The notes beneath the pieces are model-generated. The model worked only from the letters and a program-made list of their open reading frames with translations, was not told where the DNA came from and searched no databases. A stretch of DNA of 64,000 bases from Anaerovibrio slackiae (GTDB lineage Bacteria > Bacillota > Negativicutes > Selenomonadales > Selenomonadaceae), in NCBI RefSeq assembly GCF_009695585.1, contig NZ_VUNR01000009.1, positions 1 to 64,000 on the forward strand, given 5' to 3'. Below are positions 60,462-62,120 of the stretch, one piece after another. Position 1 is the stretch's first letter. Every line of letters starts with the position of its first letter. The position numbers and the translations under genes are program-made.

Positions 60462-61304
60462 TTACCGCTGCACATCGGCCATGCGGATGCGCGGACGGCG
60501 GGGTATCAGCTTCTGCTCATAAGCCAGGTCGTAGAATACCTTGAGGTTGTCCAGGTATTCCTCAGTCAGGTTCCATTTGATGACATTGAGATATTCTGAT
60601 ACCTGCCGCTCAGTGAACGGCTTTTTGTCAATGATGGAGGCGATAGCCTCTTTTTTATTTTTCCAGCCCTCTTGCAGGGAGCGGTAGAGGCGGTCGTAGA
60701 TGAACTGCACGCCCTCAGGATTTGCCTGGGCAAAGCTCTTGTGCACCGTCCATACCGCATAGACCATGCAGCGGTCGGTGAGCTTTTTCCACTCCCGTCC
60801 CAAGTCGTAGTAATAGTATTTGTCCTTCTGCTGGTGATGGTACACATAGAGGGCATCATCACCGATGAGCAGGGAGGCCGTGGCATCGTTTGGCACTGGA
60901 TGGGCAGGGGTGAGGTTCCTGGTATAATAGCGGGGTGAAGCATCGTATGCCTTTGCCATGATGATTTTCAGCAGGCAGTGAGCCGTGGCGGACTGGGCGG
61001 TAAGGATGATTTTATCCTCGTTGATTTCCTCGATTGGCTTTTTTGACACCAAAAGAATGCTCCGCACCTCGCCATCTGCCCTGACGCACAGGTCAGGCAG
61101 TACCAGCAAATCCTCATAATTCCGAGCATATACAATAGAGGAGACCTCGCTGGCATCGACGCGGCCTGTGAGCAGGTCATTGTTCATTACAGCCGGAACA
61201 CCGTTCCTCAGCTCCAGCCCTTCCTTCAGGTTAAGATTGTTAAGACCGTAGGTCAGGGGCAGTACATTGAGAAAATGTATATGCCCCAAACGTGGTTTAT
61301 TCAT
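60462..61304 (-). CDS. mqnA: chorismate dehydratase MqnA (futalosine menaquinone pathway)
   Basis: A 280-residue protein of the periplasmic-binding-protein fold. It starts at 61304 (MNKPRLGHIHFLNVLPLTYG) with GGAGGG upstream on the minus strand; a longer reading has no site. MqnA removes water from chorismate to give 3-enolpyruvylbenzoate, the first step of the futalosine route. The conserved IHFLNVLPLTYGL, VSSIVYARN, TATAHC-like SATAHCLLK and LIGDDAL segments are present. MqnD is similar in fold but begins differently. No other mqn genes are close by. Its minus-strand end is the shared terminator at 60407-60450. Confidence 0.82.
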   Translation of the reverse strand: MNKPRLGHIHFLNVLPLTYGLNNLNLKEGLELRNGVPAVMNNDLLTGRVDASEVSSIVYARNYEDLLVLPDLCVRADGEVRSILLVSKKPIEEINEDKIILTAQSATAHCLLKIIMAKAYDASPRYYTRNLTPAHPVPNDATASLLIGDDALYVYHHQQKDKYYYYDLGREWKKLTDRCMVYAVWTVHKSFAQANPEGVQFIYDRLYRSLQEGWKNKKEAIASIIDKKPFTERQVSEYLNVIKWNLTEEYLDNLKVFYDLAYEQKLIPRRPRIRMADVQR

Positions 61305-61425
61305 GAAATCCCTCCGATTGGCAGAAAATACTCTGCAATATTTCACATGTTTAATATTATACACTTTTTTTATCTGTTTGTTTAGGAAAATATCATTGTA
61401 TACATGGATATTTTTTTGCAAAGAA

Positions 61426-61454
61426 AAATCCCTGCCGGCTATCAGCAGGGATTT
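61426..61454 (-). terminator. terminator of the SpeD-like gene
   Basis: AAATCCCTGC and GCAGGGATTT form the stem; on the minus strand it is followed by TTCTTTG after a run of T. Confidence 0.8.
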
Positions 61455-61459
61455 GGTGG

Positions 61460-61909
61460 TTACTTGCGGGTAAGGATTTTGATTACCTTGTTGCCGGTAT
61501 TGCGGATTTTGCGGATAGGTGCAGTCCTGGTCTTGTACTTGGGCTTCATGTCAGTGACAGAGCCGAAGTCACCGCGCTTTAACAGGGTAGTCTTTGTCTT
61601 TTCCGGATTGAAAAGTTTGCGGAAGGTGTTAAAGAGCAGCTCCGGGGTAGCATTCTGCTGGCACAGGAAGGTGTCGGCAGAGATGTAGCGCAGCTCCGGG
61701 AAGGCATGCACGGTCATGTGGCCTTCGTTAAAGAGAATCATGATGGCAGCGTGTCCGTCCGGCAGCAGCTGATGCATGCCGGAAACAACCTCCAGCTTGC
61801 TTTCTGCAAGGATGGTTTTCAGTTTATCCACAAGCTGCTCCATGTCAGTGAAGCAGGACTCTTTGCATTTGTACATATCGATGGTGAGATGACGGGCTAG
61901 GATTTTCAA
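61460..61909 (-). CDS. SpeD-like protein lacking the pyruvoyl-forming serine
   Basis: A 149-residue homologue of S-adenosylmethionine decarboxylase. TTG at 61909 is chosen because AAGGGG lies about eight bases upstream, and the product then begins like SpeD (KILARHLTIDMY). GTG 61918 is possible but has no spacing. Active SpeD self-cleaves between Glu and Ser in an ESHLxIHTWPE motif, and the Ser becomes the pyruvoyl cofactor. Here the motif reads NEGHMTVHAFPE: the Ser is Gly, so no pyruvoyl group can form. The His and the later Cys (ADTFLCQQ) are kept. A basic tail of about 45 residues, rich in Lys, Arg and Thr, is added. I infer a catalytically dead binding or regulatory protein. Confidence 0.8.
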   Translation of the reverse strand: MKILARHLTIDMYKCKESCFTDMEQLVDKLKTILAESKLEVVSGMHQLLPDGHAAIMILFNEGHMTVHAFPELRYISADTFLCQQNATPELLFNTFRKLFNPEKTKTTLLKRGDFGSVTDMKPKYKTRTAPIRKIRNTGNKVIKILTRK

Positions 61910-62120
61910 TTGATACACCCCTTATTCTTTATATTCATTACTATTATACGATATTGGCTAAATGAAGTAAAGAGCAGGGGATTATTCTCTAAAAGATTGG
62001 GAAATTCTGTTCAAATATTTTGCCAGCTATGGATTTTTCGGCTTGTCAGCGGTTATAATATACATATATGCGGCTATCATAGGCATATGTATGGAAGAAA
62101 ACGCTTCGTGCGGTGATAGA

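Follow-up and report, generated by a model that had tools for sequence, protein, structure and literature searches.

The locus examined here lies in the window, by which we mean the whole 64,000-nucleotide stretch of Anaerovibrio slackiae DNA that was analysed. It encodes a homologue of SpeD that has glycine at the position of the pyruvoyl-forming serine, and the question is what such a protein can still do and why it is kept. The coordinates given for the gene in a preliminary description proved correct, and the open reading frame and the alignment of starts place it on the minus strand (Table 1). An alternative GTG start exists at 61918 (ORF 61918-61460), but the TTG is preferred because it agrees with both the upstream AAGGGG and the starts seen in relatives. 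The terminator that the gene had been said to own was recovered as a terminator-like hairpin. The next gene downstream (60462-61421, minus strand) encodes a menaquinone-biosynthesis family protein (PF02621, 212 bits) for which NCBIfam gave no name. The SpeD-like protein itself scores 68.4 bits with Pfam AdoMet_dc (PF02675; cut-off 25) and 69.4 bits with NCBIfam TIGR03330, under the equivalog cut-off of 75.65.

Table 1 Features of the tailed SpeD-like gene and its flanks, in window coordinates
Feature	Position	Strand	Basis or remark
CDS, tailed SpeD-like protein, 149 aa	61460..61909	minus	TTG start at 61909, stop at 61460; Shine-Dalgarno-like AAGGGG, alignment with relatives
Terminator-like hairpin, then T-rich stretch	61426..61454	minus	Downstream of the gene
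Promoter-like site TTTACT-17-TATAAT	61943..61971	minus	Upstream; consensus match only, 4 found versus 2.2 expected
Conserved basic tail, residues 106-149 (about 44)	61463..61594	minus	Motif KRGDFG..DMKPK.K...P.RKIRNTG.KVI..L
Predicted cationic amphipathic helix, residues 138-148	61466..61498	minus	Model (low to middling confidence) and hydrophobic moment
Codon of Gly63, position of the pyruvoyl-forming serine	61721..61723	minus	Sequence and alignment
Codon of His68, conserved active-site histidine	61706..61708	minus	Sequence and alignment
Codon of Cys83, conserved active-site cysteine	61661..61663	minus	Sequence and alignment
Codon of His53	61751..61753	minus	Nearly always Gly in the Ser grade; His in 80 of the 126 distinct members without Ser

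The cleavage-site stretch of the window protein reads N-E-G-H-M-T-V-H. Gly63 in Glu62-Gly63-His64, where Glu-Ser-His should stand, had already been noticed in the preliminary description, as had the retention of the active-site His and Cys, which the alignment bears out for His68 and Cys83. The changes extend beyond the serine, a point that had been missed: Ala is found at the equivalent of Thermotoga maritima Ser55 and Leu at the equivalent of Phe49, while Glu72 is retained. We take Ser55 and His68 to be processing residues and Cys83 to be catalytic in class 1b SpeD, and Phe49 and residue 72 presumably have roles in ligand binding. Measured against class 1b SpeD, the window protein has the fold and the AdoMet_dc domain, with Gly63 in place of the pyruvoyl serine; the residue set is incomplete as a whole, since His68 and Cys83 are present and Ser55 has become Ala. 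The earlier claim that no cofactor arises without Ser gains support from PDB entry 1tmi, whose title describes T. maritima S63A as a non-processing mutant. Judged from its sequence, the window protein would form no pyruvoyl group, would stay uncleaved and would not decarboxylate AdoMet.

A second SpeD homologue in a genome could be a working decarboxylase of the SpeDA/SpeDC type. In its available text, PMC10407285 describes SpeD homologues that have turned into ornithine or arginine decarboxylases, again in genomes with a second homologue, and the available part of PMC9992855 treats the same topic for phages. These proteins resemble ours in having moved beyond AdoMet decarboxylation, but as far as that text of PMC10407285 goes they are pyruvoyl-dependent, whereas the window protein has Gly63 instead of the serine, and a tail. 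We therefore regard ornithine or arginine decarboxylation by the window protein as extremely improbable. The accessible text of PMC10407285 also describes a V. vadensis C-terminal domain incapable of self-cleavage; the terms “Negativicutes” and “Selenomon” are absent from its main text.

The intact SpeD fold that had been proposed for the protein is confirmed by an AlphaFold2 model built from 55 sequences (mean pLDDT 85, above 90 over most of the core), which matches T. maritima SpeD (TM0655; 1tlu and 1vr7) with a VIA Z of 15.9 over 117 residues, an rmsd of 2.3 to 2.5 and a Foldseek E of 2e-9. This comparison spans residues 1-133, with the last helix barely covered, and the non-processing mutant 1tmi is among the structures matched. 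The two proteins share the fold, the strand order, His64, His68, Asp79 and Cys83. They differ in that the window protein lacks the pyruvoyl serine, has Ser55 and Phe49 replaced, has Asp for Glu at position 11 and carries an additional conserved basic tail. Other matches of the model include chain 6bm7_E of the T. brucei AdoMetDC/prozyme complex (Z 9.2) and, with Z 11.5, the N-terminal part of human spermine synthase (3c6k). The spermine synthase N-terminal domain has no pyruvoyl group; it has a SpeD-like fold but is part of a larger enzyme. A Pfam match to Peptidase_M27 in 4 of 55 members (E down to 3.5e-4) was dismissed as spurious, the fold being clearly that of SpeD.

The basic tail, described earlier as some 45 residues long, comprises about 44 residues with a net charge of +11 in the window protein and is kept across the family, where the average net charge is +10.6 for the tail and –3.6 for the core. 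Across 156 distinct members, a set that leaves out L040 (cut by a contig end) and the untailed SpeDs L003 and L061, the tail holds 2.92 bits of information per column versus 2.12 for the core. This stronger conservation adds weight to the view that the tail is important. Three residues, the tail’s R112 and P123 and the core’s D79, are invariant in the 117-row subset described below. In the AlphaFold2 model, ten-residue blocks of the tail have pLDDT values of 56 to 75. When treated as a helix, the 18-residue C-terminal stretch has a mean hydrophobic moment of 0.546 and a net charge of +5.1, and in 91.7% of the 156 sequences its amphipathicity exceeds that of shuffled versions of the same stretch (p<0.05). 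A tail-only profile (A3) hit 14 of 14 Negativicutes genomes versus 1 of 384 others in a phylum-wide draw; the lone match outside the class (E 9.5e-4, 27 residues) is taken as chance. In each of 31 relatives examined, the one strong tail match of the genome lay within the tailed gene. Searching the PDB with the tail returned nothing beyond one chance-like match, and a Pfam search with 11 tails gave as its best result only Phage_Hfq (E 0.14, in 4 of the 11).

Is the glycine a peculiarity of this genome? Residue 63 is Gly in 115 of the 156 distinct members, which answers the question raised earlier of a co-conserved Gly in relatives; the others have Ser (30), Ala (4), Cys (3), Phe (2), Thr (1) or His (1). 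The site drifts among Ala, Cys, Phe and Ser in families f4, f33, f34 and f35. With the 30 Ser-bearing rows and the remainder of the 13 rows of these four families removed, Gly63 is found in 115 of 117 rows and position 63 ranks eighth of 148 columns by conservation. The preliminary description had held that relatives with Ser would indicate a sequencing error or a single-strain loss. Such relatives do exist, but only in other families of the class. In the tree, Gly is present in all rows of the family to which the window protein belongs, and this distribution points to an old, clade-wide change; error and single-strain loss are accordingly rejected.

Against 11 untailed SpeDs as outgroup, the tailed proteins form one clade (SH-aLRT 98 in a tree built without the column of site 63; 100 in another tree). 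Most Ser members make up an early-branching, short-branched grade. The ancestor would therefore have been tailed and Ser-bearing, with the serine lost later. Parsimony gives 6 changes between Ser and non-Ser, and the exact count of serine losses is left loose by quick trees with long branches (rows L056 and L057); the evidence is firmer for the order of events, in which the tail came before the loss of serine, than for how often that loss took place. Of the 30 Ser members, which include L209 of Lucifera butyrica, 26 have the serine flanked as E/K-S-H; these also have His68, and most of them Cys83. In the Ser grade, 22 of 26 have Thr at position 55. Going by these residues, part of the family may still consist of active decarboxylases. 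The one member of the Ser grade that was scanned individually (L009, 1390-1839) scores 144 bits against the TIGR03330 cut-off of 75.65, and its genome, G053, also has a long SpeD. Ser-bearing tailed proteins may thus be named AdoMet decarboxylases, an annotation trap.

A whole-protein profile (A1) found a relative in 357 of 380 Negativicutes genomes and in 228 of 234 good ones. Among 80 of the 157 relatives, the named ones come from Anaerovibrio, Selenomonas, Mitsuokella, Megamonas, Lucifera, Pelosinus and other Negativicutes; families f4, f15, f33, f34 and f35 are, at a guess, from Veillonellales and Acidaminococcaceae. The window protein belongs to the tailed family by its KRGDFG..DMKP motif and its position in the single clade. 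In the phylum-wide draw the same profile matched 266 of 398 genomes. Among the matches listed, alignments outside the class end near position 113 to 126 of 151, and three non-class matches go beyond this, but only where the translation runs through stop codons. The tailed SpeD-like family, as a rule with one copy per genome, is a mark of the class Negativicutes. Matches at 23 to 29% identity also occur in four phage records, and in three of them the alignment stops at residue 113 or 114. In the fourth, MT839461.1 (1072-1470; a 4.3 kb “Bacteriophage sp.” from human faeces), an unannotated stretch matches residues 4-136 at 25% identity; this record may be a bacterial fragment carrying a tailed member.

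This persistence bears on the idea that the protein is a decaying SpeD remnant without function, kept by chance. The drift of the site in f4, f33, f34 and f35 is what such decay might look like. However, the gene is kept in nearly every genome of the class examined, its tail is strongly conserved and dN/dS is about 0.1: the window gene gave 0.08 and 0.11 against two relatives, and its tail 0.05 and 0.04 (two pairs, no control gene). Functionless decay is therefore very improbable, though slightly less so than ornithine or arginine decarboxylation.

The genome of the window also encodes a long SpeD with an intact KSH site (TIGR03331, 401 bits) and SpeE, and a precedent for a dead paralogue next to a working enzyme is the T. 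brucei prozyme, described in the available text of PMC5201418. By analogy, the tailed protein would bind and activate the long SpeD of the same cell. The prozyme is likewise a dead AdoMetDC paralogue of matching fold, and here too a dead paralogue accompanies an intact AdoMetDC gene. The tailed protein, however, does not occur only with this supposed target. Long SpeD is present in 224 of the 380 genomes of the class: 214 have both proteins, 143 the tailed protein only, 10 long SpeD only and 13 neither (153, 75, 1 and 5 in the 234 good genomes). Three genomes without the tailed protein were identified by their absence from the list of positives. Among 43 hand-picked genomes, 31 have SpeE; each of the remaining 12 encodes the tailed protein but lacks long SpeD, and 11 of them reach 90% completeness or more. 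A dedicated activator would be expected to disappear along with the enzyme it activates, and the retention of the tailed protein in at least 12 genomes without either long SpeD or SpeE disfavours both a dedicated SpeD activator and a supplier of SpeE. We consider a prozyme-like role improbable and a separate origin from the T. brucei prozyme likely, and the link to spermidine synthesis is weakened.

The supply of dcAdoMet to an orphan SpeE was considered separately and rejected, because those 12 of 43 genomes keep the protein without SpeE and because genome G031 has a carboxyspermidine-type route. In G031, which has no long SpeD, locus L248 (285-6291) encodes in a row a PLP decarboxylase, SpeE, a carboxynorspermidine-synthase-like protein, NspC and agmatine deiminase. 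Several relatives have SpeE and no AdoMet decarboxylase, and the SpeE in them may use something else.

Comparison of 157 loci, which include the same genome more than once, revealed no operon or neighbourhood common to the whole class. A gene read from its translation as lgt, for a putative prolipoprotein diacylglyceryl transferase, is the immediate upstream neighbour, in the same orientation, in 51 of the 157 loci, usually within 100 bases (for example L181, L153 and L163); the window locus does not have this arrangement. Neighbours in other families, named by the same reading, are apparently FabK-like, FprA and rubrerythrin; RecD2, HAD and pentapeptide proteins; or CtsR-McsA. Because they differ between families, the neighbours give no function. 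A general linkage to rRNA or tRNA genes, suggested by contig ends, was rejected, as rRNA stands beside the gene in only 3 of 20 long-contig stretches. These three are L260, L261 and L268, where about 7 kb at most separates the gene from an rRNA operon; their genomes all measure 4 Mb or more.

Two alternative readings concern the old pocket. His68 is retained in 115 and Cys83 in 102 of the 126 non-Ser members. The protein might be a sensor, with AdoMet, dcAdoMet or a polyamine as the ligand of the pocket and the tail as the signalling output. Retention of the fold and of His68 and Cys83 (with Glu72 in the window protein) fits this, and Gly63 would leave room for a ligand. Phe49, however, is mostly lost (kept in 13 of 126 non-Ser members), position 72 is variable (Asp 39, Glu 38 and Gln 13 of 126), and a scan of 40 loci turned up no SAM riboswitch to link the gene with AdoMet. 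We hold such a sensor to be unlikely, if the most credible of the alternatives. New chemistry at the same place, with Gly63, His53, His68 and Cys83 forming a metal site or another non-pyruvoyl active site, is less likely still. In its favour, Gly63 is constrained rather than drifting in most of the family, and position 53 changes from Gly in 24 of the 26 Ser-grade members to His in the majority of non-Ser members; the fold of a phage SAM lyase also matches the model weakly (Z 6.5, where values under 8 may be chance). Against it, 46 of the 126 non-Ser members lack His53. The four residues occur together in 71 of the 156 members, and this set may reflect a rebuilt pocket or simply shared ancestry.

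We conclude that the tailed protein is probably a class-wide pseudoenzyme of the class 1b SpeD fold, independent of AdoMet decarboxylation, and that the tail is likely its working part. T. maritima SpeD is a homodimer. In the mechanism that we propose, the family ancestor would already have had the tail while still carrying the serine; loss of the serine in most lineages would have left the protein uncleaved, with no pyruvoyl group and no AdoMet decarboxylation. Selection would then preserve the core fold, which like T. maritima SpeD presumably forms a homodimer, and would act most strongly on the tail, with its strand-like extension and the cationic amphipathic helix at its C-terminal end. 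The core would hold two tails side by side for binding to something anionic. RNA is the likeliest candidate and the inner membrane the next, and the old pocket would serve as structural core or as a ligand site. The binding of RNA or membrane by the tail is a tentative proposal to which we give somewhat less than an even chance, and the choice between the two is hampered by the fact that a cationic amphipathic helix fits RNA and lipid alike. Two observations weigh against the pseudoenzyme reading itself: the Ser-bearing members are perhaps active decarboxylases, and plain scaffolding has no need of the His68 and Cys83 that most non-Ser members keep.

A broader scenario joins several of these elements. 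Early in the history of Negativicutes, a SpeD duplicate would have gained a conserved cationic tail, later given up its pyruvoyl chemistry in most lineages and become a core protein of the whole class. A pocket rebuilt around Gly63/His53/His68/Cys83 would read AdoMet, a polyamine or a metal, and the tail would anchor the dimer to RNA or to the inner membrane; there may be a connection with the unusual polyamine-bearing envelope of the class. Negativicutes peptidoglycan carries polyamines such as cadaverine and putrescine, according to the available text of PMC10628300. As a whole we find this combination rather unlikely, falling between the sensor and the new chemistry in probability.

Literature searches confined to open-licence papers found nothing on the tailed family. 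Among related cases, the available text of PMC3686867 reports a Leishmania AdoMetDC relative, ADL, without autocatalytic cleavage, which it describes as unique to trypanosomatids. In the accessible portion of PMC6529473, a V. parvula “s-adenosylmethionine decarboxylase proenzyme”, Vpar_0438, changes 18-fold in coaggregates; it may be either the tailed protein or the long SpeD.

The tailed protein is thus a nearly class-wide gene that is uncharacterized in the literature searched. Its Ser-bearing members can score as AdoMet decarboxylases, but in most lineages, including that of the window, the protein would not be one, and counts of PF02675 matches overestimate the AdoMet decarboxylases of Negativicutes. 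With serine, glycine and drifting lineages all extant, the family offers a clean natural case of the passage from enzyme to pseudoenzyme.
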